A DNA stretch of 58,296 nt from an uncultured Campylobacterales bacterium (GTDB lineage Bacteria > Campylobacterota > Campylobacteria > Campylobacterales > Sulfurimonadaceae), in assembly GCA_903885085.1 (NCBI GenBank), contig CAISHH010000086.1, positions 1-58,296 on the forward strand, in the 5' to 3' direction. Below are positions 28,506 through 55,016 of the stretch, in pieces. Position 1 is the stretch's first letter. Each line of letters starts with the position of its first letter. The notes below the pieces were generated by a model, which saw only the letters and a list, made by a program, of their open reading frames with translations, was not told the origin of the DNA and did no database searches. The position numbers were made by a program, and so were the translations under genes.

Positions 28506-30231
28506 ATGCAAAAAACAATAGATTTACTGAAAAAATCAAATGAACTCACAATTATAAAAAAGAACGTTGATATATATTTAGAGATTCCTCACCTAGCTTA
28601 TGCTGAAGTAAAAAAGGCAGACGGCGGCAAAGCTTTACTTTTTACTCATCCAGTGGATTCAAAGAGTGGCAAAGTATTTGATGTACCCGTACTTATGAAT
28701 ATTTTTGGTTCATATAAAAGATGCGAACTCCTTTTTGGCAGACCAATAGAATCAGTTGCAGATGAGATCACAAAACTTCTTCACATGAAACCGCCAAGCG
28801 GACTGAAAGAAAAGTTTTCAATGCTTGGCGATCTTTTTTCTTTAAAAGATATTTTTCCAAAACGCTTAAAATATGAGGGTGCATGTCAAAAGATAAAATA
28901 TCTTAATGATGATATAGACCTTTATAAACTTCCAATTCTTACAACTTGGGAAGGGGTATGATAAAAATCATTTAGGAATGCACTGGCAAATCCATAAAGA
29001 CTCTTCCCACTTTTTTGACCAGTACCAAAAAGCGGGTAAAAAGATGCCAGTCACTGTTGCAATAGGCGGCGATCCACTTTACACTTGGTGTGCAACAGCA
29101 CCGCTTCCTTATGGAGTAAATGAACTTTTACTGTATGGACTCATTAAAAAAGAATCCGCGCAACTTGTTGCGTCACTGACGAACCCATTATTTATTCCCG
29201 CAGATGTTGATTATGTGATAGAGGGTTGGGTTGATCCTTTGGAATTCAAAAAAGAGGGGCCTTTTGGTGATCATACCGGATATTACACTCTAGAAGAGAA
29301 CTATCCGATTATGGAAGTAAGTGCTATAACGACGAAGAAATCTCCAGTATACTTAGCGACTGTTGTAGGGAAACCACCTTTAGAAGATAAATATATGGGT
29401 TGGGCAACTGAGCGCATATTTTTACCGCTTTTAAAAACAAATGCGCCTGATCTTGTAGATTATCATATGCCTGAAAATGGGGCTTTTCATAATCTTATAT
29501 TAGCAAAAATGCAAATACTTTATAAAGGGCATGCGAAACAGTTTATGCACCTTTTTTGGGGTTCGGGACAGATGAGCTTTGTGAAACATGCGATCTTTTT
29601 GGACAGCGGTGCTCCCAAACTTACAAATTACAGTGCGCTTGTGACGTACATCTTAAACAGATTTACACCGAAATCTCTTTTTATAACTGAGGGGATTACA
29701 GACGCGCTTGACCATTCATCGCCTGAAGCTTTGATAGGTGGAAAACTGGGTATTGATGTGACAGCTGCTAATGTAGTTTTGCCACCTCAAATTTTAGGAG
29801 AGGATGAATTGCTTTTAGCCGCTCAAAAGCTTTCTCCTGAAATTGTAGGCTTGGTTCAATATATGCTGCATACGAAGAATCCTGTGACAGTCATCTCGGT
29901 GAAAAAATCGAGATCTTTAAAAGAGTGCTTTGACGCCCTAACCCCTCTTAACGAGAATATACGTATAGTTGTGTTTGTAGATGAAGAAAAAAATGATATT
30001 ACAAGTCCTTATATGCTTTTATGGAGAGTAGTCAATAATATAGATGCTACGCGTGATATTTTTATCTCTGGATTGATGGTTGGAATTGATGGAACAAATA
30101 AAAATAAACTTGATGATTTTCATAGAGAATGGCCTGGAGATGTTGAGTGTACTCCAAGTGTTATAGAAAGCTTAAAAGTGCGTAATCTATGGACACTTGA
30201 GGATAATTTAAGCAAAAAATATCAAATCTAA
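28506..30231 (+). pseudogene. ubiD: UbiD-family decarboxylase disrupted by internal out-of-frame deletion
   Basis: Two ORFs encode the two ends of one UbiD-type prenylated-FMN decarboxylase. The first (28506-28961, 151 residues) runs to KLPILTTW and then EGV-stop. The second frame, readable from TAT at 28957 as YDKNHLGMHWQIHKDSSHFF, continues to 30231. In intact homologues about 30 residues lie between TTW and YDKN, including the NxGxYR segment whose Asn and Arg help bind metal/prFMN and act in catalysis. About 95 bases (2 modulo 3) seem missing, so the frame is lost. In Campylobacterota this protein is thought to serve menaquinone (futalosine pathway) synthesis. Either the gene is dead here or this is an assembly error. 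Confidence 0.85.
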
Positions 30232-38777: not shown

Positions 38778-40427
38778 ATGAAACTTCACTCTTATGATAT
38801 AAGTCCAAAATGTACTACAAGCGTTGCTTATTTTTCTATGGAGTTTGCCATCGATCAAGCTTTAAAAATTTATTCGGGTGGACTCGGATTTTTAGCGGGT
38901 TCTCACATGCGCAGTGCATACGATCTCAAACAAAATGTTGTTGGTATCGGCCTTTTATGGAGTTTTGGTTATTATGATCAAGAACGAAATGAAGACCGTA
39001 CTTTAAAACCTCAATATACTCGTAAATATTACTATTTTTTAGAAGAACTTAAAGAAAAAGTCACTGTTAAAGTCCAAACAAAAGATGTTGTCGTAAAAGC
39101 ATTTTTACTTCATGCAGAAGTGTTTGGAACAGCTCCAATTATCCTGCTTTCAACTGATATAGATGAAAATGATTATCTCTCTAGAACCATTACCCATAAA
39201 CTGTATGAATCAAATGAAAGAACTCGTGTGGCTCAAGAGATTGTTTTAGGTATCGGAGGAGTGAAAATTTTAGAAGCATTAGGGCGAAAAACAGATATCT
39301 ATCATATGAATGAGGGGCATGCGCTTCCGCTTGTATATGAGTTAACTAAATATTATCCCCAGATAGAGAGCTTAAGGGAACATGTTGTTTTTACGACTCA
39401 TACACCAGAAGCTTCTGGCAACGAGACCCATGACATTAATTTTTTACATGAAATGGGCTTTTTTAATGGACTGAGTTTAGAGAAAGCTCGTAGTTTAAGT
39501 GGCTATGAAAATGATGATAATTTTTCTCTGACCGTTGGCGCGCTAAGAGCTTCTAAAAGAGCCAATGCCGTCTCAAAGATTCATGGAAAAGTATCCAATG
39601 AGATGTGGCACCATGTAAGTAATAAATGCGAGATTATCTCAATTACAAATGCTCAAAATAAAAAATATTGGACAGATAAAACACTGATCCGTGCCCTTGA
39701 TGAGCATGAAGACTATGAACTTGTCGCACGAAAAAAACACCTGAAGAAAGTTCTTTTTGATGAAGTGGCGGATCAGACAGGGAAGATGTTTGATCCAGAA
39801 ATTTTCACAATTGTCTGGGCAAGAAGATTTGCTGAATATAAACGTCCAGGACTCTTAAAATATGATTTTGAAAGATTTATAAAGTTAATAGAAAATACGC
39901 AGATGCCTGTTCAAATCATTTGGGCTGGAAAACCTTATCCAACAGATCACGGCGCAGTAGATATGTTTAATGAGCTCATTCATATTAGTCGTCAATATCC
40001 AAATATTGCCGTGCTTATCGGTTACGAGCTTTTTCTCTCAAAACTTCTAAAACAGGGAAGTGATCTTTGGCTGAATACTCCAAGACTCACCCGTGAAGCA
40101 AGTGGAACAAGTGGTATGACTGCGAGTATGAACGGTTCTGTACATTTTTCTATTAATGACGGATGGCATCCTGAGTTTGCACGAGATGGTAAAAATGCTT
40201 TTACGATTCCAGAAATTGATCATAATCTGAGTATTTTAGAGCAAGACAGACTCGATAATAAAAATATGATGGATATTTTAGAAAACACGATTTTGCCTAT
40301 TTACTATACAAATCAGCATAAATGGACTCGTATTATGAAAAATGCGATGACTGAGATAGAGATAGAATTTGATTCAGGTCGTATGGCAAAAGAGTATTTC
40401 GAACTTATGTACAATTACAAGGCATAG
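38778..40427 (+). CDS. Alpha-glucan phosphorylase family protein lacking the PLP lysine
   Basis: GT35-type protein of 549 residues, shorter than classical GlgP (about 800) and like the short TIGR02094-type phosphorylases. It has AYFSMEFAI...YSGGLGFLAG at the N-terminus (about 15-40), EGHALPLVYEL, and the phosphate-site ARRFAEYKRPGLL. The cofactor region reads EASGTSGMTASMNGS (residues 440-454); in characterised phosphorylases the residue at 448 is the Lys that carries pyridoxal phosphate, and here it is Thr (codon ACT). It may be inactive as a phosphorylase, may use another cofactor arrangement, or may be regulatory. It heads the operon, so a role in glycogen turnover is likely, but the reaction is not certain. 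Confidence 0.82.
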   Translation: MKLHSYDISPKCTTSVAYFSMEFAIDQALKIYSGGLGFLAGSHMRSAYDLKQNVVGIGLLWSFGYYDQERNEDRTLKPQYTRKYYYFLEELKEKVTVKVQTKDVVVKAFLLHAEVFGTAPIILLSTDIDENDYLSRTITHKLYESNERTRVAQEIVLGIGGVKILEALGRKTDIYHMNEGHALPLVYELTKYYPQIESLREHVVFTTHTPEASGNETHDINFLHEMGFFNGLSLEKARSLSGYENDDNFSLTVGALRASKRANAVSKIHGKVSNEMWHHVSNKCEIISITNAQNKKYWTDKTLIRALDEHEDYELVARKKHLKKVLFDEVADQTGKMFDPEIFTIVWARRFAEYKRPGLLKYDFERFIKLIENTQMPVQIIWAGKPYPTDHGAVDMFNELIHISRQYPNIAVLIGYELFLSKLLKQGSDLWLNTPRLTREASGTSGMTASMNGSVHFSINDGWHPEFARDGKNAFTIPEIDHNLSILEQDRLDNKNMMDILENTILPIYYTNQHKWTRIMKNAMTEIEIEFDSGRMAKEYFELMYNYKA

Positions 40428-40428
40428 T

Positions 40429-41649
40429 ATGACTACAAATATTAAATATATGAGCGGTGTGAAGAGTTTAAAAGATATTGATGTATATGGCAAACGTGTT
40501 TTGATACGAGTGGATTTCAATGTCCCGCTTGATTCACATGGAAATATTTCTGATGATCGCCGCATTAAAGCAGCCTTACCGACGATCAACTATTGTATAG
40601 ATCACAATGCCTGCTCTATCACTTTAGTGTCGCATCTTGGGCGCCCAAAAGGTGAGTATGAAGAAAAATACTCACTCAAACATATTCAAAAAAGGCTTGA
40701 GCGATTACTTGATAAGAGAGTGGAGTTTATCGATGATTTTGAGAGTGCTAAAGGCGAGATTGCTACTTGTTCTAAAGAAAGAGTTTTTTTACTTGAAAAT
40801 ATCCGCTTTCACGAAGGTGAGAAAAAAAATGATAAAGAGTTTTCAAAAAAACTCGCCTCTATCTGTGATGTGTATGTCAATGATGCTTTTGGAACAAGTC
40901 ACAGAGAAGACTCTTCTACATTTGGGATCACAGAGTTTGTAGATACAAAAGTTGCTGGATTTTTGATGATGAAAGAGATAGAAGCATTTTCAAAAGCACT
41001 CGAAGAGCCTGTTCGTCCCATAGCTTTAGTCGTTGGTGGAGCAAAGATCTCTTCAAAGATTACACTTTTGGAATCGGTGTTACAAAAAGTAGATAAACTC
41101 ATCATTGGCGGAGCCATGAGTAATACATTTTTAAAAGCTTTGGGTTATGATATGAAAGATTCTTTATATGAAGAGGATTATGTTGCAACTGCCTTACATG
41201 TAATGACTGGAGCGCGTGAAATGGGTGTAAAAATCTATCTTCCTGTGGATCTTGTTGTAACGGACTCTGTAGAGACGCCGGTCGATGTAAAAGTTGTACC
41301 CGCGCAAGATGTACTTGATGGATTTAAAGCTGTGGATATTGGACCGGCAACTGTGAAACTTTTTAGTGAAGCAGTGGAAATGTCAAACACCATTATCTGG
41401 AATGGGCCGATGGGCATCTATGAGCAAGATAAGTTTTCAAAAGGAACTTTTAAATTGGCAACGGCAATAGCTGACTGTTATGCTTACACAATCGTCGGGG
41501 GTGGTGACACGGCTGACGCTGTAGAGAGATGTGGAGAAGCAAGTAATTTTAGTTTTATCTCTACTGGCGGTGGAGCGAGTCTGGAACTTTTAGAGGGAAA
41601 AATATTACCTGGATTTAAAAACTTGGACAGAAGAGAGGAGAGTATCTAA
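40429..41649 (+). CDS. pgk: Phosphoglycerate kinase
   Basis: Glycolytic/gluconeogenic kinase converting 1,3-bisphosphoglycerate and ADP to 3-phosphoglycerate and ATP. Key motifs are RVLIRVDFNVPLD, the substrate-binding LVSHLGRPKGE, FGTSHREDSST and the nucleotide loop GGGDTADAVE near the C-terminus. The chosen ATG at 40429 follows the glgP stop by one base with AAGG upstream; the ATG at 40450 is an alternative. It contains one TACATGTA. Placement in a glycogen operon ties storage polymer to triose metabolism. Confidence 0.95.
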   Translation: MTTNIKYMSGVKSLKDIDVYGKRVLIRVDFNVPLDSHGNISDDRRIKAALPTINYCIDHNACSITLVSHLGRPKGEYEEKYSLKHIQKRLERLLDKRVEFIDDFESAKGEIATCSKERVFLLENIRFHEGEKKNDKEFSKKLASICDVYVNDAFGTSHREDSSTFGITEFVDTKVAGFLMMKEIEAFSKALEEPVRPIALVVGGAKISSKITLLESVLQKVDKLIIGGAMSNTFLKALGYDMKDSLYEEDYVATALHVMTGAREMGVKIYLPVDLVVTDSVETPVDVKVVPAQDVLDGFKAVDIGPATVKLFSEAVEMSNTIIWNGPMGIYEQDKFSKGTFKLATAIADCYAYTIVGGGDTADAVERCGEASNFSFISTGGGASLELLEGKILPGFKNLDRREESI

Positions 41650-42608
41650 TGGCTTTGGCGATCATGTGTTCGGGCGGTGATGCACCGGGGATGAATCCTG
41701 CTATCAAAAAGTTTGTGGATTATGCACTTCACAAGGGTCAAGAAGCATATCTGATTTATGATGGACTCGAAGGACTTATAGATGGAAAGATAAAAAAAGC
41801 TACCCATAAAGATGTTGCTGGAATTGTGCATTTTGGTGGGACTATTATCCGTTCTTCACGTTCAAAAAGATTTTTCGAATATGAGTATAGAGAAAAAGCG
41901 TACAATAATATAAAACAGAGTAGCATTAAAGGTATTATTGTTTTGGGCGGTGATGGTTCCTTTCGGGCAATGCAAAGATTCAGCTCTGAGTTTGATATTA
42001 ATTTTGTCGGTATTCCCTCCACTATCGATAATGATATTTATGGCACAGAGTATTGTCTTGGTGTTGATACCTGTTTAAATGTTATCAGAGATGCCCTAGA
42101 TAAGATAAGAGATACCGCATCCTCATTTAACCGTGCTTTCTTGATAGAGGTGATGGGTAGAGACTGCGGATATCTCGCTGTGGCTTCGGCTATGGTGAGT
42201 GGTGCTGAGATTTGTATCATCCCTGAGCTGGAGTTTAATAAAGAAAAAATGGAAGCGAAGCTTGTAAAAGAGATAGCAGAGGGCAGAAACTATGCCTTAG
42301 CCATTATCTCCGAGGGTGCGAAAAAAACGACCGAGATTCACCAGTGGATGGAGGAAAAACTTGGTCTTGAAACAAGAGTGAGTATTTTAGGACACATCCA
42401 AAGAGGTGGAAATCCTACTTTTTATGACCGTATGATGGCTTTTGATTTTACGATTGCAGCGGTTGATTATCTTCTTTCACATAATGATTCGAACAAAGTT
42501 GTCGTGTTTAATAAGGGTGAGTTTAGTTTTATAGAGATCGACGATGTAGTACAAAACAAATATGAGTTACCAAAGCATTTTATAGATGCTGTAAATTATT
42601 TAGATTAA
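41649..42608 (+). CDS. pfkA: ATP-dependent 6-phosphofructokinase
   Basis: A 319-residue PfkA-family enzyme, phosphorylating fructose-6-phosphate in the committed glycolytic step. The N-terminal MCSGGDAPGMNPAI binds nucleotide. GGDGSFRAM carries Gly (not Asp) at the position that distinguishes ATP- from PPi-dependent enzymes. The catalytic segment is GIPSTIDNDIYGT, and GHIQRGGNPTFYDR closes the sugar site. Its start overlaps the pgk stop by one base. Many Campylobacter and Helicobacter species lack PFK, so its presence implies a forward glycolytic route from stored glycogen. Confidence 0.93.
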   Translation: MALAIMCSGGDAPGMNPAIKKFVDYALHKGQEAYLIYDGLEGLIDGKIKKATHKDVAGIVHFGGTIIRSSRSKRFFEYEYREKAYNNIKQSSIKGIIVLGGDGSFRAMQRFSSEFDINFVGIPSTIDNDIYGTEYCLGVDTCLNVIRDALDKIRDTASSFNRAFLIEVMGRDCGYLAVASAMVSGAEICIIPELEFNKEKMEAKLVKEIAEGRNYALAIISEGAKKTTEIHQWMEEKLGLETRVSILGHIQRGGNPTFYDRMMAFDFTIAAVDYLLSHNDSNKVVVFNKGEFSFIEIDDVVQNKYELPKHFIDAVNYLD

Positions 42609-42618
42609 AAGGAGAAAT

Positions 42619-45123
42619 ATGAAAGCAGTAGTTATGGCAGGCGGATTTGGAACAAGGATCCAGCCTCTGACACATTCAAGACCAAAACCGATGTTGCCTA
42701 TTATGAATAAGCCGATGATGGAGCATACGATGATGATGCTTAAAGATCTTGGCATTAGCGAGTTTATCGTGCTTTTATATTTTAAGCCTGAAATTATTCA
42801 AGATTATTTTAAAGACGGAAGCGATTTTGGTATCAAGATCACTTATGTTATTCCTGATGATGATTATGGAACTGCGGGAGCTGTGAAGCTTGCAGAGGAG
42901 TATATTGGAGATGAAAACTTCATTATTATCAGTGGTGACCTTGTAACAGATTTTGATTTCTCAAAACTATTTGATTTTCATACAAGTAAAAATGCAAAAC
43001 TCTCTATCGGTCTAACTTCTGTTGAAAATCCTCTGCAGTTTGGAGTTGTGATCGCTAATGAAAACAATGTGATCGAAAAGTTTCTCGAAAAGCCAAGTTG
43101 GGGTGAGGTGTTTAGCGACACAATCAATACAGGAATCTATATCATAGAACCGGAAATACTCAAATATATTCCAAAAAATGAGAATTTTGATTTTGCAAAA
43201 GATCTTTTTCCTTTCTTAATGGGAAAAAATATCCAACTTATGGGATATAGTCTCAGTGGATATTGGCGCGATGTCGGCAACCCTGAGAGTTACCGTGAAG
43301 TGTATGAAGACCTTTTATCTAACAAGGCAAATTTCCAGATCTCGGGGATAAAACAAACGTATCCAGATGGCGTTCTTTATAGCAAAAGTACCTATAAGCT
43401 TGATAACTCTATTGAAATCGTCGGTACCGTTATGCTTGGAGAAAATGTCACAATAGCAAAAGATGTAAAACTTATCAATGTGGTTATCGGCGATAATGTC
43501 ACTATTGCAAGTGGTTCTAAGATAAGAAACAGTGTCTTATGGGACAAAGTTACAGTCGGAAAAAATGCTAAACTTGATAACTGCGTTATCTGTAATGACA
43601 ATATTATCGGTAAAAATGTCAAAGCTAAAGCAGGGATGATATTGGCAGAAGGTTGTGAGATCGGTGAACTCGCAATGATCGAGCAAGATGTCATCATCTG
43701 GCCAAATAAAAATATTGAAGCAGCATCGATTGTGAGTCATAATCTTGTCCTTGGTACAAAATATAAAAATTCTATTTTTGAAAATGGAAGCGTTTCTGGA
43801 AAAAGCAATATGGAACTTTCATGTGAGATGGCAACAAAACTCGCAGAAGCTTTTGCCGCGCAACTTCCCGTAGGCTCTAAAATAATTGTTGGACGTGATG
43901 ATGATAAAAGCTCGCGTATGCTCAAGCGTGCATTTTTAGGAGGAATGCTCTCAGCTGGAATAGATGTTTTAGATATTAAAAATGTTCCTCCATCTGTTCT
44001 TCGTTTTGCTTTGGCGCATGATCCAAAACTCGTTGGTGGCGCTCACTTTAAGAGATGTATCGAAGATACGCTAAATTCTGAGATAACACTTTTTAATGAG
44101 GAAGCGATTCGAATCGACTTAAACTCTGCAAAGTCTATAGAAAAATCATTTTTTAGTGAAAAGTTTCGTCGCGTTGATTATACGCAAATCGGTACTATAC
44201 ACGAGACTTTGCATCATATTGAGTGTGTAAATTATAAACAGACTATGGAAGCTAAGATTAACCATTCTATCATTAAATGTAAAAACTTTAAAGTTGCTGT
44301 AGATTTGATGCATGGAACTACCGCGGAGATTTTTCCTAAACTTTTAAATGATCTTGGGATTGAAAATATCATCCTTAACAGTTATTATGATGAGAAAAAA
44401 TTAGCAAATGTCACAGCTTTAGAGAAAAAATCTTATGCGAATATCTCTTCTATCGTGAAAAGTTTAGATTACGATATGGGTGTGATTATCTATCCAAATG
44501 CACAGAAAGTGACTTTAGTGACGGAAGAGGGTGTGATACTCGATAAAGTGAAAATCCTTTATAGTGTTTTGGGTCTTTTAAATATCGATGCAAAAGAGAA
44601 GAAAAAACGGGTCTTTTTACCGACATGGGCACCTGATATCAAATACTTTGAAAACCTTGAGATAGAGCGTGGAAAATATGTAAATCTTAAAGCTTCAGAA
44701 TTGCAAAAATATGATCTGATCGCTACAGTAGACGGCAACTTTTCTTTTACAGAGTTTGGCTATACACGTGATGCTATGTATGCGAGTTTGAAAGTTATGC
44801 AACTCCTGAGCTGTCATGATGTCAAGCTTTCAGAACTGGCAAAAAGTGTAGATAATTTTTACTATAAATCACTTAAAGTTGATTGTACTCAAGCGCTCAA
44901 GGGCAAAATGATGAGAAAATTCTTAGAAGATGCCAAGGGCAAAAAATCATCATCTTTGGATGGTGTGAAAATATGGGAAAATGAAACTGATTGGATTTTA
45001 ATGATTCCAGATCAATATTCAGAGCATCTCAATATCTATATCCAAGCTATCGATACTGTTTGTGGAGAAGCACTTTATGAGCGTTATATGCAAAAGATTG
45101 CTGCTTGGTCCATAGGAGCTTGA
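42619..45123 (+). CDS. Nucleotidyltransferase / degenerate phosphohexomutase fusion
   Basis: An 834-residue fusion. Residues 1-235 form a sugar-phosphate nucleotidyltransferase (GGFGTRIQPLTHSRPKPMLP, with the Asp in ISGDLVTDFD). Residues about 250-370 are left-handed beta-helix hexapeptide repeats (GENVTIAKDVKLINVVIGDNV). Residues about 385-834 are a phosphoglucomutase/phosphomannomutase fold. In that last part the phosphoserine loop TASHNP is replaced by GAHFKR (about 473-478) and the metal loop DxDxDR by YPNAQK (625-630), so mutase activity is unlikely. With no GlgC in the operon, this may provide the nucleotide-sugar for GlgA; GDP-mannose-type activity is the other reading of the family. 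Confidence 0.82.
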   Translation: MKAVVMAGGFGTRIQPLTHSRPKPMLPIMNKPMMEHTMMMLKDLGISEFIVLLYFKPEIIQDYFKDGSDFGIKITYVIPDDDYGTAGAVKLAEEYIGDENFIIISGDLVTDFDFSKLFDFHTSKNAKLSIGLTSVENPLQFGVVIANENNVIEKFLEKPSWGEVFSDTINTGIYIIEPEILKYIPKNENFDFAKDLFPFLMGKNIQLMGYSLSGYWRDVGNPESYREVYEDLLSNKANFQISGIKQTYPDGVLYSKSTYKLDNSIEIVGTVMLGENVTIAKDVKLINVVIGDNVTIASGSKIRNSVLWDKVTVGKNAKLDNCVICNDNIIGKNVKAKAGMILAEGCEIGELAMIEQDVIIWPNKNIEAASIVSHNLVLGTKYKNSIFENGSVSGKSNMELSCEMATKLAEAFAAQLPVGSKIIVGRDDDKSSRMLKRAFLGGMLSAGIDVLDIKNVPPSVLRFALAHDPKLVGGAHFKRCIEDTLNSEITLFNEEAIRIDLNSAKSIEKSFFSEKFRRVDYTQIGTIHETLHHIECVNYKQTMEAKINHSIIKCKNFKVAVDLMHGTTAEIFPKLLNDLGIENIILNSYYDEKKLANVTALEKKSYANISSIVKSLDYDMGVIIYPNAQKVTLVTEEGVILDKVKILYSVLGLLNIDAKEKKKRVFLPTWAPDIKYFENLEIERGKYVNLKASELQKYDLIATVDGNFSFTEFGYTRDAMYASLKVMQLLSCHDVKLSELAKSVDNFYYKSLKVDCTQALKGKMMRKFLEDAKGKKSSSLDGVKIWENETDWILMIPDQYSEHLNIYIQAIDTVCGEALYERYMQKIAAWSIGA

Positions 45124-45124
45124 T

Positions 45125-47146
45125 TTGAAACTAAGTTTTATATGGCATATGCATCAGCCGGACTACCGCGATGGTAGTGGAATCATGCAAATGCCTTGGG
45201 TGTTTTTACATGCGATAAAAGATTACTATGATATGCCATGGATGATGGCCCGTCATAGCAGTGTCAAAGCTACTTTTAATATCACGCCAACACTGATCCA
45301 ACAGTTAAAACTATATTATATTCAGCCTCAAGCAAGTGATCGCTTTTTGGCTTTGTGGTCTGTTCATCCCTCTTCATTGGCTGAAGAAGACAGAAAATGG
45401 GTGATTAAGATCTGTAAAAGTGCAACTGCAAAGACAATGTTTGAGTCTTCTGCTAGATATAGAGAACATCATACTCAGGAGCATTTTAATAATAGTGAGC
45501 TCATTGACTTAGAGATGCTGTTTGTACTTTCGTGGTGCGGTGCATATCTCAAAGAAAATAATACTATCGTACAGCAACTCATCGCCAAACAAAAAGATTA
45601 TACCAATGATGAAAAACTCACTCTGTTAAACGAGCTTTCCGTTTTTATCGCAGGAATATTTGATTATTATCTTAAGCTTCATAATGATAGTCTCATCACA
45701 CTCTCGACTACGCCATTAACTCATCCGATATTACCGCTTTTAATGGATATGAACAATGCATTAAGTGCAAATCCAAGTACGGATATTCCAAAAGATTTTA
45801 TGGATCTCTCAGAGGATGCACGCTTACATGTAACAAGAGCAAAAGATCTATTTTTTGAGACGTTTGGCTACATGCCAACTGGTTTTTGGCCTGCAGAGGG
45901 CGCAGTGGACACAAAAAGCGTAGCACTTTTAAAAGAGTGCGGTGTTGAGTGGATTGCTACAGATGAAGAGATATTGTTCCGTTCACTCAACTCTTCAGTG
46001 AGAGAAAATCTTTATACTCCTTACATGTATAAAGGGATGCGTATTGTTTTTCGAAATCATTATCTCAGCGATTTGATAGGTTTTACTTATTCTAAAATGG
46101 AAGCCTCACAGGCTGTGTCAAATTTTATGCATGAGCTTGACAAGATAGAACACTCCGATCCTGATGCGACTGTTTTTGTTATCTTGGATGGTGAAAATGC
46201 TTGGGAGTTTTTTACTAATAACGGCTTTGATTTCTTTGATCTCTTGTATAAAAATCTCCAAGAATCTACATGGTGTGAGAGCGTAACGATGGATCAAGTA
46301 TCGCAACTACCCGCAAGAGAATTGGCATATTTGGCGGCAGGTAGCTGGATCCATGGAAATTTTAATACTTGGGTTGGACATCGTGAAAAAACAAGAGCTT
46401 GGGAGTTGATCTATTTGACCAAAAGAGATTATGAACATCATAAAAACTCATTGGATAAAGAGACTCGCGAGAAGATAACGGAACATTTTTTATTGGCTGA
46501 ATCCTCAGACTGGTTTTGGTGGTATGGAGATGATCACTATAGTGAATTTGGAGCAGAGTTCGATGAGCTTTTTCGCTTCCATCTCATAGATATCTATACT
46601 CTGATCAACATAGCTCCGCCATCAGATCTTTTTATCCCTATTATTGAGCATAAAAGCACACAAAATTTTTGGTTACAGCCCCAATCAGATATCTCTCCAA
46701 TCATTAATGGTAAACATGATTCCTTCTTTGAGTGGATTGGTTGTGGGATCGTCGATGAGAGTAAACTTTTTTCCACTATGGACAAAGAGCGTGGGCCGAT
46801 AAAGAAAATTTTGTATGGACAAGATGATTTGAAACTCTATTTTGCCTTTGAAGCGAGGATGAGTGAGCTTTGCGGTACTTACACAATGGAGGTTATTATA
46901 GAACCTCTTGGACTAAGAAAAAAAGTAAATTTTGAGATACAAACAGATTTTATTGGTGAATTAGAACTTTATGTTATGTGCCAAGATCTTTTAGAAATGA
47001 GCATAGACAGAAGTAAAATTACGATCGATGAGATCTCTATAAAGTTTGAGCTTGAAAAAGATGGTCAGATTATTCAGATATTACCAGGATTTGGCGAGCT
47101 TAAAATCGATCTGAGTAATGATTATAGTAGAAACTGGTTTATATAA
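45125..47146 (+). CDS. GH57 glycoside hydrolase, amylase/amylopullulanase-like
   Basis: Alpha-glucan-acting enzyme of family GH57, 673 residues. WHMHQPDYRD near residue 7 is conserved motif 1. The catalytic nucleophile is Glu258 (GFWPAEGAVD) and the acid/base Asp355 (VILDGENAWEF), a pattern typical of the alpha-amylase/amylopullulanase-like subgroup. The last 150 residues form a beta-rich C-terminal domain. No signal peptide is seen, so it acts on internal glycogen. The start is TTG at 45125 with AGGAG six bases upstream. It contains TACATGTA at 45825 and 46022. Confidence 0.85.
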   Translation: MKLSFIWHMHQPDYRDGSGIMQMPWVFLHAIKDYYDMPWMMARHSSVKATFNITPTLIQQLKLYYIQPQASDRFLALWSVHPSSLAEEDRKWVIKICKSATAKTMFESSARYREHHTQEHFNNSELIDLEMLFVLSWCGAYLKENNTIVQQLIAKQKDYTNDEKLTLLNELSVFIAGIFDYYLKLHNDSLITLSTTPLTHPILPLLMDMNNALSANPSTDIPKDFMDLSEDARLHVTRAKDLFFETFGYMPTGFWPAEGAVDTKSVALLKECGVEWIATDEEILFRSLNSSVRENLYTPYMYKGMRIVFRNHYLSDLIGFTYSKMEASQAVSNFMHELDKIEHSDPDATVFVILDGENAWEFFTNNGFDFFDLLYKNLQESTWCESVTMDQVSQLPARELAYLAAGSWIHGNFNTWVGHREKTRAWELIYLTKRDYEHHKNSLDKETREKITEHFLLAESSDWFWWYGDDHYSEFGAEFDELFRFHLIDIYTLINIAPPSDLFIPIIEHKSTQNFWLQPQSDISPIINGKHDSFFEWIGCGIVDESKLFSTMDKERGPIKKILYGQDDLKLYFAFEARMSELCGTYTMEVIIEPLGLRKKVNFEIQTDFIGELELYVMCQDLLEMSIDRSKITIDEISIKFELEKDGQIIQILPGFGELKIDLSNDYSRNWFI

Positions 47147-47154
47147 GGATGGAC

Positions 47155-49188
47155 ATGAAAAAAGTATCGCTTCTCTTTGGTATCCACATGCATCAGCCCG
47201 TTGACAATTTCGGAGATGCGGTGGAAGAGGCCATAAACCTATGTTATAAACCTTTCTTTGAGACAATGGTAAGATATCCTGAGTTTAAATTTGCAGTGCA
47301 TTCAAGCGGTTGGTTACTCGATGAGATACGCACTAAACATCAAGATATCTTTGAAAATATGCAGGTTTTGACAAAACATGGTTCTATCGAATGGATCAGT
47401 GCCGGATATTATGAACCGGTGTTAAGCTCTATTCCCTCTTGCGATAGAGTCGCACAAATTGAGATGATGAATAAATTTTTGAAAAAACATTTTGGCGTAC
47501 AACCAAGAGGATTATGGTTGACAGAGCGAGTTTGGGAAAGCGCATTGGTTCCTGATCTCTCTACATGTAAGATCGATTATGTGCTTGTGGATGATTATCA
47601 TTTCTTAAGCAGCGGTTATGATGCTTCTTCAATGGATGGATATTATACGACAGAAGAGAGTGCCAAAGAGCTCTCTCTTTTTCCAATAGCAAAATCATTG
47701 CGTTATGCTCTCCCTTTTTACAGCGTACAAAGATCCATAGAGGCTATTTTGGCTCGTTCAAAACGTGAGAATTCTGCGGCTATTATCTTTGATGATGCTG
47801 AAAAGTTTGGTTTATGGCCTAAAACGCATGCGTGGGTATATGAAAAAAAATGGCTGGAGCAGTTTATAGAAGCTGTTTTATCACATGAGCAGATCATTCC
47901 AGAACATTACAGTCACTATATGAAGAAAAATCGTTCTTTAGGGATTGCATATCTTGGCAACACCTCTTATATAGAGATGGGTGAATGGAGTTTACATGCC
48001 GAGCAAACGCTCTCTCTTGAAAAGCTCAAACAGGATGTCGGTGAAAAGTATTTTAACGATATCGGTGTGGCTTTTATAAAAGGTGGTATCTGGAAAAACT
48101 TTTTTGTTAAATACCATGAAAGCAACTATCTGCATAAACGTATGCTTTACTTTAGCAAGGATCGAGAAAAACTTTCAAAGAGCGCTTTGGAGTCTTTGTA
48201 TAAGCTTCAGACAAATGATGTATTTTGGCATGGAGTTTTTGGCGGTTTATATCTTCCAAACCTTCGAGATAATGCCTATAGATATCTTCTTGAACTTGAA
48301 AAATCAAGAGCGAAAAAAGGGATTAGTTTTGAAGTGCTGGATATTGATAAAGATGGGCATGATGAGTTAAAAGTACTCACACACAATATCAGTGCTATTT
48401 TTTCAAGTAAATTTGGCGGACAGATGGTAGAGTTTGGTTCTTTTGACACACTCTTTAACTGGCAAAACACGCTTATGCGACGTTATGAAGCCTATCATGA
48501 AAAGATATTTCAAGCTAAAGATGCAGTGCTTGTGCATGAACAAAGAAGTGATGAGATAGCAACGATTCACCATGACAGCGTCGCACAAGATGAAGAACTC
48601 AAAGCGGAACTTATCTATGATTGGCATCCAAAAAACTCTTTTATCGAACATATTTGTACCGATCCTTTGACATTTGATAATTATAGAAAATTAGAATTTA
48701 AAGATGTTGCAGATTTTGCAAATCAGCCATTTATCCTTGCAAAAAATAAAACTGTTTTTAGTCGTGAGGGCGCTATTTACTTGGATGAAACTTACAAAAC
48801 GATGATGAAAAAAGAGTATGCTTTTGATACAAACTCCGTTGTCTTGAAGCTCGATTGTAAAACTGCTTACGAAGGAAGTCTCTATTTTGCACAAGAGTTT
48901 AATTTTCATTTTGCGCATCCTCATAAAGTGACTTTTAATGGTAAGACCATTGAAGAGGGACTCAGTGAGTATGACTGTAAAGAGCTTGTCATTATAGATG
49001 ATTTTACAAATAAGGTTCTCAAAATCAAGATGAGTCAAAAGTGTACAATTATTGGATATATCTTAAATACGGTTTCACAAAGTGAAAGCGGTTTCAATAA
49101 AATGGCGCAAGAAATCTCCTTTGTTTTAACGTTGCCATTTGTCAAAAATCTTACATGGAGTGTGGAATTGGAGCTGGAAAATGTCTGA
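47155..49188 (+). CDS. GH57 4-alpha-glucanotransferase-like enzyme
   Basis: A second, different GH57 protein of about 677 residues. It resembles the Thermococcus 4-alpha-glucanotransferase branch with extra C-terminal beta domains: GIHMHQPVDNFGD at the N-terminus, nucleophile Glu in WLTERVWE (about residue 124), acid Asp in IIFDDAEKFGLW (about 213). It probably disproportionates malto-oligosaccharides during glycogen turnover. Start 47155 is preferred because AAGGA lies five bases upstream; an ATG six bases earlier overlaps that site. It overlaps the GalT-like gene by eight bases. Confidence 0.87.
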   Translation: MKKVSLLFGIHMHQPVDNFGDAVEEAINLCYKPFFETMVRYPEFKFAVHSSGWLLDEIRTKHQDIFENMQVLTKHGSIEWISAGYYEPVLSSIPSCDRVAQIEMMNKFLKKHFGVQPRGLWLTERVWESALVPDLSTCKIDYVLVDDYHFLSSGYDASSMDGYYTTEESAKELSLFPIAKSLRYALPFYSVQRSIEAILARSKRENSAAIIFDDAEKFGLWPKTHAWVYEKKWLEQFIEAVLSHEQIIPEHYSHYMKKNRSLGIAYLGNTSYIEMGEWSLHAEQTLSLEKLKQDVGEKYFNDIGVAFIKGGIWKNFFVKYHESNYLHKRMLYFSKDREKLSKSALESLYKLQTNDVFWHGVFGGLYLPNLRDNAYRYLLELEKSRAKKGISFEVLDIDKDGHDELKVLTHNISAIFSSKFGGQMVEFGSFDTLFNWQNTLMRRYEAYHEKIFQAKDAVLVHEQRSDEIATIHHDSVAQDEELKAELIYDWHPKNSFIEHICTDPLTFDNYRKLEFKDVADFANQPFILAKNKTVFSREGAIYLDETYKTMMKKEYAFDTNSVVLKLDCKTAYEGSLYFAQEFNFHFAHPHKVTFNGKTIEEGLSEYDCKELVIIDDFTNKVLKIKMSQKCTIIGYILNTVSQSESGFNKMAQEISFVLTLPFVKNLTWSVELELENV

Positions 49189-50197
49189 GATACGACTGGA
49201 TAGAATCCACAATAAATATGTTGTAATAGCGCCGGAGAGATTATTTCGGCCAAATCTAAATTGTCGTAATGAGAAAAAAAACAGTGTATCTCTGATTTGC
49301 CCTTTTTGTGATGGTAATGAAGATCTCACTCCGCCTGAGATCTTTGCCCTACGTGATAATGAGGCAAATGAACCTTCTTGGAGGACAAGAGTTGTTCCAA
49401 ATCTTTACAAAGCGGTGCAGGTAGAACTCTCCGATATCTCTAAAAGAGATGGAATATTTGAGTCGATTCCTGGAGTCGGTGCGCATGAGATTCTCATCGA
49501 TTCTCCCTGTCATGAATGTGATTTTTACCAGCTAGATACCTCTGCTATAGAAGATTGGCTTCGAACTATGATTATCCGTATTGAGGATTTGAAAAATGAT
49601 ACGCGATTAATTTATCTGAGTATCTTTAAAAATGTCGGTATTAACGCAGGTGCGACACAAGAACATCCACACACTCAACTTTTGGCTTTGCCTATTATGC
49701 CAAAAGAGGAGATGGCATTTTTAGAGGAAAATATGCGATACTATCGGAGTCACGGACGCGGCTTAGTTGAAGATGTACTCTTTAATGAACTTGCATCCAA
49801 AAAAAGGATTGTTGTACGCCATGGCAATTTTGTTGCATTTTGTCCCTTTGCGAGTGCTTATCCTTTTGAAGTGATGATAGCGCCTCTTACAAATATTGCC
49901 TCTTTATGTAAATGCAGTAGAAAAGATGTATCAGATCTCTCAGTTTTGATCAAAAGGGTGTTTGAAAGCTTACATAAACAGCTTGGAGTCTTTGCTTATA
50001 ACCTCTCTTTGAAGATGGCACCACTCAATACAAATTTTGAAAATGAAATGTATATGAACCATTTGGATAAAAATTACCGTTTTATTTTGCGTATTACTCC
50101 ACGTATCTATAATCTTGGCGGTTTTGAGATCTCTACTGGTATGGCGATAAACAGCGTCGTGCCGGAAGAATCTGCAAAAATGCTCGGCGGAGAGTAG
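49181..50197 (+). CDS. GalT-like hexose-1-phosphate nucleotidyltransferase
   Basis: A HIT-superfamily nucleotidyltransferase of the galactose-1-phosphate uridylyltransferase type, 338 residues. The zinc-type cysteine pair is CPFC (about residue 40), HEILIDSP follows, the active-site His loop is EHPHTQL (H162-P-H164), and the C-terminus has the conserved GGFEISTGMAIN. There are no other galactose (Leloir) genes nearby. In a glycogen operon it may instead interconvert ADP-glucose or UDP-glucose with glucose-1-phosphate, as shown for some GalT-like proteins. The start was moved to the ATG at 49181, giving the family N-terminus SEIRLDRIHNKYVVIAP. Confidence 0.83.
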   Translation: MSEIRLDRIHNKYVVIAPERLFRPNLNCRNEKKNSVSLICPFCDGNEDLTPPEIFALRDNEANEPSWRTRVVPNLYKAVQVELSDISKRDGIFESIPGVGAHEILIDSPCHECDFYQLDTSAIEDWLRTMIIRIEDLKNDTRLIYLSIFKNVGINAGATQEHPHTQLLALPIMPKEEMAFLEENMRYYRSHGRGLVEDVLFNELASKKRIVVRHGNFVAFCPFASAYPFEVMIAPLTNIASLCKCSRKDVSDLSVLIKRVFESLHKQLGVFAYNLSLKMAPLNTNFENEMYMNHLDKNYRFILRITPRIYNLGGFEISTGMAINSVVPEESAKMLGGE

Positions 50198-50200
50198 AAG

Positions 50201-51610
50201 ATGAAAGTTCTTTTTGCCTCAAGTGAGATATTTCCATATGCAAAAAGCGGCGGACTTGCGGATGTAGCGGATGCGCTTCCAAGGGCATTGAGTTCTTATA
50301 CTGAACTCTACAGCGTGATCCCTTTGTATGGCTTTATGAGTAAAAAAGATCTTGAATTATCCCAGAGTTTTGAAGTAAGTCTAGGGGATGAAAAATACAA
50401 AATCAATCTCTATACAAAACTTCAAAATACTCTAAACCTCTTTTTTCTTGAAGCACCACTTTTAAGTGAAACTAAAACTCTTTACTGTGACAAAGATGGA
50501 GATTACGCAGATAATGATCTTCGTTTTGCAATCTTTTGCAAAGGAATTGTCGCTCTTGCTGAGCGCTTACATGTAGAGGTTTTACATCTTAATGATTGGC
50601 ATACCTCTTTATGTGCGCTTTTTGCCAAAGAGCAAAAACTAGTTCTCAAAACAATTTTAACTATTCATAATCTTGCGTATCAAGGTGTCTTTGAGAGAGA
50701 GACGCTAAAAAAAATTGGGATAGATGAAAAATATTTTACGATGGATGGCTTAGAGTTTTATGGCAAGGTGAACTTTTTAAAAGCGGGCATCGCGTACAGT
50801 GACGCAGTGACAACAGTGAGTCCAAGCTATGCAAAAGAGATACTCACATCGGAGTTTGGATGCGGGCTTGAAGGGTTTTTAACACATCACAAAGCAAAAC
50901 TCAGCGGTATTTTAAACGGTATCAATGAAGTGGTTTTTGATCCTCGCAGCGATAAAGCACTTTTCGTGTCTTATGAAAATATAGAGAGAAAATATCAAAA
51001 CAAAGTTGCTTTGCACAAAACTTCAAAACTCAAAGATCCTAGACGTCCTTTATTTGTCATGATCACTCGGCTGGTTGAACAAAAAGGGATTGATCTTGTC
51101 CTGGAATCGATGGAAACATTACTACAAAATAAGCTTAATCTTTTTATCATTGGCGAGGGTAAGGCCAGATTTGCAGAGCAGTTGCAAACTCTTTCCTTAA
51201 AACATGAGAACTTTGAGTTTTTTAATGGTTATGATGAGGTATTATCACATCAGCTTTATGCCGCGGCAGATTTTTTGCTGATGCCATCACGCTTTGAACC
51301 TTGCGGTCTAAACCAAATGATTGCGATGCGTTATGGAACGATTCCCATCGTACATGCAACGGGAGGATTAAAAGACAGTGTTCACGAAAATAGATCCAAA
51401 TGCGGACAAGGGATACTCTTTAAAAAGCAGAGTAAGCAGGCACTTTTACTCGCACTCAAGAGAGCTTTGAACCTTAAAAAAGAGAAGAGGCAGTTTGAGT
51501 CCATGGTGAGTTTTAATATGCAATGCGATTTCTCATTTGAACAAAGTGCATTGGCATATCTCAAAATCTATGAGAGCCTTGTATCAGTCCACGCGGCTTT
51601 ACTTTTATAA
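50201..51610 (+). CDS. glgA: Glycogen synthase, first of two paralogues
   Basis: GT5 glycogen/starch synthase of 469 residues that extends alpha-1,4-glucan from a nucleotide-glucose. The substrate loop is KSGGLADV (residues 15-22), the GT-B C-terminal domain starts near ITRLVEQKGIDLV with the conserved Arg and Lys, and the catalytic Glu lies in RFEPCGLNQ (about residue 367). All key residues are present. It is more divergent than the second copy, with a shorter N-terminal domain. It lies three bases after galT. One TACATGTA at 50568 is read as Leu-His-Val. Confidence 0.92.
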   Translation: MKVLFASSEIFPYAKSGGLADVADALPRALSSYTELYSVIPLYGFMSKKDLELSQSFEVSLGDEKYKINLYTKLQNTLNLFFLEAPLLSETKTLYCDKDGDYADNDLRFAIFCKGIVALAERLHVEVLHLNDWHTSLCALFAKEQKLVLKTILTIHNLAYQGVFERETLKKIGIDEKYFTMDGLEFYGKVNFLKAGIAYSDAVTTVSPSYAKEILTSEFGCGLEGFLTHHKAKLSGILNGINEVVFDPRSDKALFVSYENIERKYQNKVALHKTSKLKDPRRPLFVMITRLVEQKGIDLVLESMETLLQNKLNLFIIGEGKARFAEQLQTLSLKHENFEFFNGYDEVLSHQLYAAADFLLMPSRFEPCGLNQMIAMRYGTIPIVHATGGLKDSVHENRSKCGQGILFKKQSKQALLLALKRALNLKKEKRQFESMVSFNMQCDFSFEQSALAYLKIYESLVSVHAALLL

Positions 51611-51621
51611 AAGGATAAAAT

Positions 51622-53100
51622 ATGGGAACAAGAAAATTAAATATCTTATTTGTGGCTTCAGAAGTTGTGCCATTTGCAAAAACAGGCGGACTAGCAGATG
51701 TGGCTGGCGCACTTCCAAAAGCACTTAAAGCTCTTGGGCATAATATCATTGTCGTGATGCCAAGATATTATAAGATCGATCCATCAAAACTCACAAAACT
51801 TGAATCTCCACTAGGTGTGCCGATGGGAGCGATGGGAGAGCTTTGGGCTGGAGTTTATACATCAACTTTGTCAGGGAATAATGTTCCAATCTATTTTATA
51901 GATCATGAGCGTTACTTTGGAAGAGGGGGCTTGTATGAAGATCATGACGGCTCTTATGAAGATAATGGCAACCGTTTTGTTTTCTTTTCAAAAGCGGCTT
52001 TACAGCTATGTAAGATGCTCTCCTTTACGCCTGATATTATCCATGCAAATGACTGGCATACAGCGATTGTGCCCCTTTTGGCAAAGACGAGATTTGTTCA
52101 TGACTTTGCCAATGCAAAATCAGTACTCACGATCCATAACTTACAACACCAAGGACATTTCCATAAAAATTTGATGGATCTCATGGAAGTGGGTTGGGAA
52201 CATTTTAATGCACGTGAATTTGAGAGTTTCAATGGTGTCAACCTTTTAAAAGGTGGAATCATGCACGCTGATGCGATTACGACCGTTTCAAAAAAATATG
52301 CCGATGAGATCCAAACAAGAGAGTTTGGTTTTGGACTTGAAGGTCACATCCGAGCACACAGTGAAAAGCTTTTTGGGATTTTAAATGGCGTGGACTATGA
52401 TGAATGGAATCCATCAGTGGACAATCTGATAGCCCAAAAATTTGATGTGGGTGATATGGATGGAAAGCTTACATGTAAGCATGATATACAGCGTCATTTT
52501 AATCTTGAAGTACGTGATGATGTGCCGCTCATTGGTTTTGTGGGACGTTTTGCAGAACAAAAAGGAATAAGTCTTATCGCTGGGATCATTCATGGTCTGC
52601 TTGATATGGATATCCAAATCGTGATGCTCGGAGCTGGCGAGAAATGGGCTGAGGAATTTTTTAGTGATGTTGCAACGCATCGAAGTAATTTTGGTTTACA
52701 TGTAGGGTACTCTGACGCGCTTGCACATAGTATTGAAGCCGCAAGCGATATGTTTTTGATGCCCTCACTTTTTGAACCTTGCGGACTCAACCAGATCTAC
52801 AGTCTTCGTTATGGAACATTGCCGATAGTTCGAGCAACGGGCGGACTCGATGACACCATCCAAAACTTTGATGAAGACCATGAGCATGGAAATGGATTTA
52901 AGTTTTTTGATGCCACTCAGGAAGCTTTGTATTACACAGTTTTATGGGCAGTAAATATCTATAAAAATGATAAAAAAAGTTTTCTAGATATGCAAGAAAG
53001 AGCGATGAAACAGCACTTTGGTTGGGATGATTCGGCAAAAAGTTATGAAGCTGTTTATAACTATATCTTAGGTTTTGAAGCCGAAAAGCCTTCAGTATGA
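51622..53100 (+). CDS. glgA: Glycogen synthase, second of two paralogues
   Basis: GT5 synthase of 492 residues, closer to the bacterial GlgA consensus: KTGGLADVAGALPKAL (about 20-35), VGRFAEQKGISLI (about 310), LFEPCGLNQIYSLRYGT (about 385-401). The start has AAGGA at good spacing. The stop overlaps glgB by four bases. Two adjacent synthases suggest division of labour, for example priming of short chains against elongation, as for paralogous synthases elsewhere. This is an inference. It carries TACATGTA at 52470 and 52697. Confidence 0.94.
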   Translation: MGTRKLNILFVASEVVPFAKTGGLADVAGALPKALKALGHNIIVVMPRYYKIDPSKLTKLESPLGVPMGAMGELWAGVYTSTLSGNNVPIYFIDHERYFGRGGLYEDHDGSYEDNGNRFVFFSKAALQLCKMLSFTPDIIHANDWHTAIVPLLAKTRFVHDFANAKSVLTIHNLQHQGHFHKNLMDLMEVGWEHFNAREFESFNGVNLLKGGIMHADAITTVSKKYADEIQTREFGFGLEGHIRAHSEKLFGILNGVDYDEWNPSVDNLIAQKFDVGDMDGKLTCKHDIQRHFNLEVRDDVPLIGFVGRFAEQKGISLIAGIIHGLLDMDIQIVMLGAGEKWAEEFFSDVATHRSNFGLHVGYSDALAHSIEAASDMFLMPSLFEPCGLNQIYSLRYGTLPIVRATGGLDDTIQNFDEDHEHGNGFKFFDATQEALYYTVLWAVNIYKNDKKSFLDMQERAMKQHFGWDDSAKSYEAVYNYILGFEAEKPSV

Positions 53101-55016
53101 AAAATCAAATCTTTTATGATGTGACGCTTTTCACCGAATTTGACATCTATCTTTTTAAAGAGGGAACACACGCGAAACTTTACAACCATCTCGGCTCGCA
53201 TTTTATGCAAAGAGATGGTAAAGATGGAGTTTATTTTGCAGTGTGGGCACCCAATGCAAACGCTTTACATGTAAGAGCTGATTTTAATGATTATAGTACG
53301 ATCTCTCATCCGCTTCAACTCCGTAATGATGGTTCTGGAATCTGGGAAGGCTTTATCGAGAGCGTGGATGAGGGGATGAGTTATAAATATCATATCAACT
53401 CAAATGCCCTACATGTAAGCTCTGATAAGGCTGATCCATACGCTTTTTTTGCAGAAGTTGCACCAAGTTCAGCATCAAGAGTTTGTAAGCTTGATGGCTA
53501 TATCTGGGGTGATGATGAGTGGATGAAAACACGTCATAAACATAACTCTCATAAAGCTCCAGTCTCGATTTATGAAGTGCATCTTGGTTCATGGCGAAGA
53601 AAAGTTGAAGAGGAAAATCGCTTTTTAACTTACACAGAGCTCGCAAATGAATTAGCCGAATATATCAAAGAGATGGGTTTTACGCATGTGGAGATCATGC
53701 CGATCACCGAGTATCCTTTTGAGGGGTCTTGGGGATATCAAACGACTGGCTATTTTGCCCCGACCTCGCGTTATGGAACGCCGAGTGAGTTTATGAGTTT
53801 TGTGGATATTTTGCATAACAACGGCATCGGCGTTATCCTTGATTGGGTACCTTCACACTTTGTGACAGACGGTCATGGACTTTCAAATTTTGACGGCTCA
53901 TGTCTGTATGAGCATAAAGATCCGCGAAAAGGATTTCATCCAGAGTGGGGCAGTGCGATTTTTAATTATGATAGAAATGAAGTTCGCGCATTTTTGGTAA
54001 GCTCGGCACTTTTTTGGCTCGAATACTATCATCTCGATGGCATAAGAGTCGACGCGGTAGCTTCGATGCTTTATCTTGATTATGCAAGAGAAGAGGGAGA
54101 ATGGATTCCTAACGAAGATGGAAGCAACGTCAACCGCGGCGCTGTACAGTTTTTAAAACAGTTAAACTCCACGGTGTATGAAGAATACAACGACATCATG
54201 ATGTTTGCAGAGGAATCCACAAACTACTCAATGGTTAGTCGCCCAGTGGTGGAGGGTGGACTGGGATTTGGATATAAATGGAATATGGGTTGGATGCATG
54301 ACATTTTAAAATATATGAAGTTTGATCCACTTTTCCGCCAGCATCATCATCAACATCTTACTTTTAGTTTTGTTTACATGTACAACGAAAACTACTTATT
54401 ACCGCTCAGTCACGATGAAGTGGTGCATATGAAGGGCTCACTCATTAACAAGATGCCGGGAGATAATGAGAAGAAATTTGCGAACTTGCGTGCACTTTTT
54501 TCTTTGATGTATGCGCACCCAGGGAAAAAACTGCTCTTTATGGGCGGAGAGTTCGCACAGTTTTCTGAATGGAATTTTGAGCAAAGTCTAGACTGGCATC
54601 TGCTTGCGTATGATGGACATGAGGGTGTACAAAATGTTGTCAAAGAACTCAATTATATTTATAAAACAGAACCTTCTTTGCACAGAAATGACGTAGAAAA
54701 AGAGGGATTTTCTTGGATAGATGAAAATGATTATCAGGCAAATGTGATTTCATTTATAAGAAAAGGTGCGAGAAATGAAAAGCCTCTTATCATCATCTGT
54801 AATTTCTCAGACAAAGAGCATATCGGTTATCCGATAGGTGTGCCGACACGCGGAGAATATGTAGAAATTTTTAATTCAAATGACTCATTATACGGCGGAT
54901 ACGGCCAGACAAATGCGACTCCACTTAAGACACAAGCCAAAGAGTGTCACGGAAGAAAAAACAGCTTACATGTAAGCCTGCCTCCACTGAGTGTGGTTTA
55001 TCTTAAAAAGATCTAA
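53097..55016 (+). CDS. glgB: 1,4-alpha-glucan branching enzyme GlgB
   Basis: GH13 enzyme making alpha-1,6 branches in glycogen, 639 residues. After a short N-terminal extension, a CBM48 domain (about 35-125) precedes the TIM barrel. The catalytic triad is Asp in GIRVDAVASM, Glu in FAEESTN and Asp in LSHDEVVH. The C-terminal beta domain is complete. The first N-terminal domain of long-type GlgB (about 100 residues) is absent, as in many bacteria. It carries four TACATGTA copies (53266, 53410, 54375, 54967), the densest of any gene here. It ends five bases from a convergent gene. Confidence 0.96.
   Translation: MKNQIFYDVTLFTEFDIYLFKEGTHAKLYNHLGSHFMQRDGKDGVYFAVWAPNANALHVRADFNDYSTISHPLQLRNDGSGIWEGFIESVDEGMSYKYHINSNALHVSSDKADPYAFFAEVAPSSASRVCKLDGYIWGDDEWMKTRHKHNSHKAPVSIYEVHLGSWRRKVEEENRFLTYTELANELAEYIKEMGFTHVEIMPITEYPFEGSWGYQTTGYFAPTSRYGTPSEFMSFVDILHNNGIGVILDWVPSHFVTDGHGLSNFDGSCLYEHKDPRKGFHPEWGSAIFNYDRNEVRAFLVSSALFWLEYYHLDGIRVDAVASMLYLDYAREEGEWIPNEDGSNVNRGAVQFLKQLNSTVYEEYNDIMMFAEESTNYSMVSRPVVEGGLGFGYKWNMGWMHDILKYMKFDPLFRQHHHQHLTFSFVYMYNENYLLPLSHDEVVHMKGSLINKMPGDNEKKFANLRALFSLMYAHPGKKLLFMGGEFAQFSEWNFEQSLDWHLLAYDGHEGVQNVVKELNYIYKTEPSLHRNDVEKEGFSWIDENDYQANVISFIRKGARNEKPLIIICNFSDKEHIGYPIGVPTRGEYVEIFNSNDSLYGGYGQTNATPLKTQAKECHGRKNSLHVSLPPLSVVYLKKI

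Follow-up and report, generated by a model that had tools for sequence, protein, structure and literature searches.

GT35 homologues without the PLP lysine form a conserved branch in Bacteroidota and Campylobacterota

Judged by its sequence, the gene at positions 38778-40427 (+ strand) of the window, which is the whole analysed stretch of 58,296 nucleotides from an uncultured Campylobacterales bacterium, is a member of a large and strongly conserved bacterial branch of GT35 that lacks the PLP lysine. Glycogen phosphorylase is a textbook example of an enzyme with PLP, and to our knowledge its PLP lysine is treated as universal. Clade proteins are annotated by NCBI as glgP, alpha-glucan family phosphorylase. 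A full-text literature search yielded no description of a lysine-less or PLP-free glycogen phosphorylase, which is weak evidence of absence, as subscription journals were largely outside its reach.

The window gene and the extent of its clade

The gene is an intact open reading frame of 549 amino acids with an ATG start and no internal stop. The encoded protein reaches 450.2 bits with the NCBIfam profile TIGR02094 (alpha-glucan family phosphorylase, cut-off 191.7) and 51.1 bits with the Pfam profile PF00343 (cut-off 27). Its cofactor loop reads TREASGTSGMTASMNGS (EASGTSGMT, residues 440-448, positions 40095-40121, + strand), and the frame contains EASGTSGMTASMNG, with ACT (Thr) at codon 448 (40119-40121). 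In the alignment T448 falls on K646 of E. coli MalP (loop EASGTGNMK), and the Schiff-base lysine of GT35 is thereby absent from the window protein; we take rabbit K680 and E. coli GlgP K662 to be equivalent to K646. The latter is the PLP (Schiff-base) lysine according to the literature, and K also occupies this site in those classical phosphorylases that were examined. The earlier note on this DNA, which had described Thr in place of the PLP lysine, was thus correct. It was also right that no single sequencing error would give AAA or AAG, as either requires two changes from ACT, and the landmarks it reported as kept (SGGLGFLAG and RRFAEYKRPG) are both found in the protein.

The codon itself differs between orthologues: a 93%-identical orthologue has ACA instead of ACT, and further ones use AGT or TCC (Ser). 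Because orthologues encode T or S with different codons, and because T, S or A occupies the site across the clade, a sequencing error or a single isolated mutation is ruled out. A decaying gene is ruled out as well, since dN/dS is 0.03-0.09 in four close pairs (two further pairs yielded no dS value), in agreement with the selection on the protein that the earlier note had assumed.

That note had proposed asking whether a clade shares Thr at this site. Joint alignment of 123 clade members displays T in 92, S in 30, A in one and K in none. Outside the clade, K is found in 26/26 aligned TIGR02094 relatives, a set comprising the Campylobacterota long form and proteins of cyanobacteria, chlamydiae, rhizobia, Meiothermus, Parabacteroides and others. 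The short lysine-less form is present in 47 of 100 genomes, a set made up of the host and 99 relatives from its family and order. Scanning 84,980 species genomes gave at least 595 relatives, and hence the clade is probably larger than counted; the best 80 of these relatives all lack the lysine (68 T and 12 S). The hosts are nearly all Campylobacterota and Bacteroidota. A few records are labelled Verrucomicrobia, Beijerinckiaceae or Sphingomonadales; these are metagenome bins, and their labels may be wrong.

In a tree of TIGR02094 proteins the lysine-less members are set apart from the rest by a long branch with full support. In a second tree, rooted on GT5 glycogen synthases and computed without the lysine site, they form one clade (96/100). 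Its sister is L135 (96/99), a short lysine-bearing TIGR02094 protein of 541 amino acids from genome G128, and the whole is nested among lysine-bearing proteins. L135 is of the same length as the window protein and shares K30 with it, but keeps the PLP lysine and has N, D, G and V at positions 415, 417, 421 and 425. As the lysine-less clade is one branch nested among lysine-bearing GT35, these trees indicate that the lysine was probably lost once. The idea of an ancestral relic from before the use of PLP is unsupported, as the clade nests inside lysine-bearing TIGR02094 in the GT5-rooted tree, in which outgroup and classical phosphorylases sit on long branches and the deep root is unsure.

Active-site residues and predicted fold

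Residues H208, N291, W298, R349, R350, K355, Y416, E440 and T444 are invariant in the clade (123/123). Their rabbit equivalents are presumably H377, N484, W491, K568, R569, K574, Y648, E672 and T676, in this order. According to the sequence, the glucose subsite (H208, N291 and E440-G443) and the residues for the substrate phosphate (R350 and K355) are kept, and so are R349 and T444, by which ordinary phosphorylases bind the phosphate of PLP. The set of glucose- and phosphate-binding residues of TIGR02094/GT35 (H208, N291, R349, R350, K355, E440, T444) is therefore present in the window protein. In the alignment, the segment R349-R350-F-A-E-Y-K355-R (39822-39845, + strand) corresponds to the phosphate sites that we take to be K568, R569 and K574 of rabbit. 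The equivalents of R569/K574, H377, N484, E672 and T676 are shared with the classical phosphorylases E. coli GlgP and MalP; these enzymes differ in having the lysine (K662 and K646, respectively) and in their length of about 800 amino acids, and are distant.

The segment G415-Y416-E417...S421...K425 (40020-40052, + strand), which in the predicted structure leads into a helix of residues 418-427, has been altered in the clade. E417, S421 and K425 are each found in 123/123 members, with D, G and V in their places in the lysine-bearing sister L135; the position of K425 is V, I, T, Y or L in 26/26 lysine-bearing relatives. Their spacing puts the three residues on a common face of the model helix, which, by analogy with classical structures, would line the PLP pocket. 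Position 415 is G in the clade instead of D or N, and there are further clade-specific changes near other active-site segments (V346-W347, A292-Q293 and N215-E216). As E417, S421 and K425 show no variation in the clade, in contrast to the lysine site itself, this pattern suggests a rebuilt pocket that is in use, rather than decay.

The AlphaFold2 model of the window protein (mean pLDDT 92.1, pTM 0.91) has a GT-B fold nearest to glycogen phosphorylase, and the 50 PDB matches listed for it are all phosphorylases. Closest among them is GlgP of Segatella copri (PDB 9l6i; TM 0.91 by query length, 28% identity). A sequence search for a solved structure of a lysine-less clade member found none. The window protein thus resembles TIGR02094 phosphorylases such as the Segatella enzyme in scoring above the family cut-off, in having its nearest solved fold there and in its glucose and phosphate residues; unlike them, it has neither the PLP lysine nor the DUF3417 N-terminal region, and it carries the E417/S421/K425 helix that is specific to the lysine-less clade.

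Operon and co-occurrence with glycogen genes

The window gene heads a glycogen/glycolysis operon in which all genes lie on the same (+) strand. It is followed by pgk (phosphoglycerate kinase, 40429-41649, named from its sequence) and, on the basis of profile matches, by pfkA (6-phosphofructokinase, 41649-42608), a nucleotidyltransferase/phosphosugar-mutase fusion (42619-45123), a GH57 protein (45125-47146), a GH57 protein of the alpha-amylase/4-alpha-glucanotransferase type (47149-49188) and a GalT-like uridylyltransferase family protein (49139-50197). The GT5 glycogen synthases glgA1 (50201-51610; TIGR02095, 494 bits) and glgA2 (51622-53100; TIGR02095, 549 bits) and the branching enzyme glgB (53097-55016; TIGR01515, 855 bits) complete the set. 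The mutase domain of the fusion reads LVGGAHFKRCIEDT and has no SHNP serine loop, and it is the second apparently disabled catalytic centre in this operon. A PF00343 profile search of the host genome found no second phosphorylase; the window gene is its only GT35.

Two observations concern other parts of the window. A UbiD-like decarboxylase gene at 28506-30231 seems split, with about 30 residues missing and a frame shift around 28950-28977, and may be a pseudogene or an assembly fault. At the contig end (187-2120) there is a transposase with an ATP-binding helper, a pair like istA/istB of IS21.

Within the 100 genomes, GlgA is present in 45/47 Campylobacterota with the lysine-less gene versus 8/53 others (Fisher p ~1e-17, a statistic that ignores relatedness). 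Three of these eight GlgA genomes carry the lysine-bearing long GlgP instead. Genome G092, also of Campylobacterota and without the lysine-less gene, has a lysine-bearing GlgP immediately ahead of the nucleotidyltransferase-mutase fusion, where L033, L034 and L035 have the lysine-less gene. Both forms coexist in about ten Campylobacterota genomes, and hence the two are not simply interchangeable or fully equivalent.

A further 30 genomes, most of them from Bacteroidota, were examined, and in 27 of these the lysine-less protein is the only GT35; the second copies in two of the remaining three proved lysine-less on reading, which did not extend to the copy in G119. Glucan synthesis in this set is represented by GT5 GlgA in 20 genomes, by GT3 in three and by GlgM in three, with GlgE confirmed in one of the latter. 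GlgE adjoins GlgB in Rhodocytophaga and in one Pontibacter, where a TreS-maltokinase fusion is also present; gene order is the same in the other Pontibacter. For these two genera, GlgE rules out that the lysine-less protein is the only polymerase where GT5, GT3 and GlgM are lacking. One enzyme accompanying the GT5, GT3, GlgM and GlgE routes points to a shared breakdown step rather than to another synthase. The gene neighbours in Bacteroidota gave little signal, being mostly unrelated genes.

Two further features were seen in these sets. Most genomes of the series G100-G129, nearly all of them Bacteroidota, carry a protein of 260-300 amino acids whose match to GT5 is confined to the N-terminal half of the synthase (TIGR02095 positions 2 to about 224). 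Plasmids from Pseudorhizobium, Indioceanicola and Pontibacter (L181, L183, L189) have short glgP genes, both lysine-bearing and lysine-less, beside or near a type II glyceraldehyde-3-phosphate dehydrogenase.

Possible chemistry and its alternatives

Based on this dataset, we tentatively hypothesize, at somewhat less than even odds, that the protein is a catabolic enzyme of the alpha-glucan phosphorylase type, which would transfer or remove terminal alpha-1,4-glucosyl units to phosphate without PLP at the usual lysine. In ordinary phosphorylases the acid/base beside the substrate phosphate is proposed to be the 5'-phosphate of PLP and not its aldehyde (PMC6411801; for the acid/base role also PMC11046441); Parrish 1977, as cited in PMC6411801, concerns phosphate analogues in the pyridoxal-reconstituted enzyme. 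Because the residues that hold the PLP phosphate are retained, phosphorolysis of glycogen might proceed with a phosphate group at the T444/R349 site that is untethered at residue 448. Such a dianionic phosphate would act as proton relay and could be supplied by free inorganic phosphate, by non-covalently bound PLP or by a nucleotide. The resulting glucose-1-phosphate would feed the adjacent glycolytic and sugar-nucleotide genes. A phosphorylase is supported by the fact that this is the only GT35 of the host genome although the operon has two glgA genes and glgB. The invariant active-site residues, the association with GlgA in Campylobacterota, the lysine-bearing GlgP at the corresponding place in G092, the variety of synthesis routes in Bacteroidota and the nearest solved fold point the same way. 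The clade-specific residues V346-W347, A292-Q293 and N215-E216 count against it, as do the genomes with both forms, and so does the rebuilt pocket helix together with a closer likeness to glycogen synthases than lysine-bearing relatives have, as would be expected had the donor or the cofactor changed. The PLP-free glycosyltransferase or phosphorylase considered in the earlier note is consistent with the kept substrate residues and the rebuilt helix. A regulatory glycogen-binding protein, its other suggestion, is disfavoured, as every catalytic position checked except the lysine is invariant.

The main rival, which we consider unlikely although it deserves the most weight among the alternatives, is a return to common GT-B chemistry, in which the freed nucleoside site would serve the reaction glucan + NDP <-> NDP-glucose in the direction of synthesis or breakdown. 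Clade members score 16-41 bits (median 29) with the GT5 profile versus -2 to 20 bits (median 11) for lysine-bearing relatives, and the loop before the helix is GY in 119/123 of them, as in GlgA (aligned Tyr Y355), instead of D/N-Y. A 2024 review (PMC11046441) proposes that, in a proto-GT35, PLP took over from a nucleoside monophosphate, and the operon contains nucleotidyltransferase and GalT-like genes. With GT5 GlgA (E. coli GlgA and glgA1/glgA2 of the window) the protein shares the GT-B fold and the GY loop; Y355, E377, R300 and K305 of GlgA likewise have equivalents in Y416, E440, R350 and K355, which are unspecific for GT5 because lysine-bearing GT35 has them too. However, the window protein is absent from the TIGR02095 matches, being below the cut-off, and the nucleotide-phosphate loop of GlgA (KTGGL, with K15 in KTGG) is replaced by YSGGL. 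The GT5 likeness is secondary according to the tree, and most hosts already encode one dedicated glucan synthase or, often, two. A moved anchor appears more doubtful still. By its sequence, K425 is a candidate for the alternative Schiff-base lysine that the earlier note had named as a refutation; it may reach PLP from the opposite side of the pocket, which would leave an ordinary PLP phosphorylase. Its invariance in the clade, the contrast with all 26 relatives, its place four residues after S421 and eight after E417, both likewise clade-specific and invariant, and the kept pocket neighbours W298, Y416 and N433 are consistent with this, but in the model K425 is seven residues into the helix and may be too deep.

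Loss of the cofactor lysine, and the lysine-bearing GlgP that co-occurs in about ten genomes, could also be explained by a catalytically dead protein that binds glycogen or regulates; this is improbable in view of the examined catalytic positions, which, the lysine aside, are all invariant over two phyla, in a protein that is the only GT35 of most carrier genomes. Least probable is a glucan hydrolase or glucanotransferase, in which water or another sugar would take the place of phosphate, PLP would be unneeded and free glucose would pass to a glucokinase. A ROK (glucokinase-like) domain is fused to the lysine-less GT35 in L030 (1438-3999) and L068 (5577-8207), and ROK-like genes adjoin the lysine-less gene in L062, L064 and L109. 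This association is unspecific as a sign of hydrolysis, because a ROK gene also follows a lysine-bearing glgP on a Tsukamurella plasmid, and the phosphate site is kept.

More broadly, a large natural clade may have switched from the PLP-dependent phosphorylase mechanism to a PLP-free one, in which the cofactor site, once vacated, would take up free phosphate or a nucleotide, a proposal to which we give slightly less than an even chance. If true, glycogen metabolism in these bacteria would be independent of vitamin B6, and the clade would represent a natural reversal of the proposed replacement of a nucleotide by PLP in GT-B enzymes. Many annotations of glycogen breakdown in Bacteroidota and Campylobacterota rest on this lysine-less enzyme, which is often the sole GT35 of its host, and many genes labelled "glycogen phosphorylase" probably rely on another chemistry or on another arrangement of the cofactor. 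The clade offers a natural test of the role that PLP plays in enzymes of this fold, and of the idea that it displaced a nucleotide.
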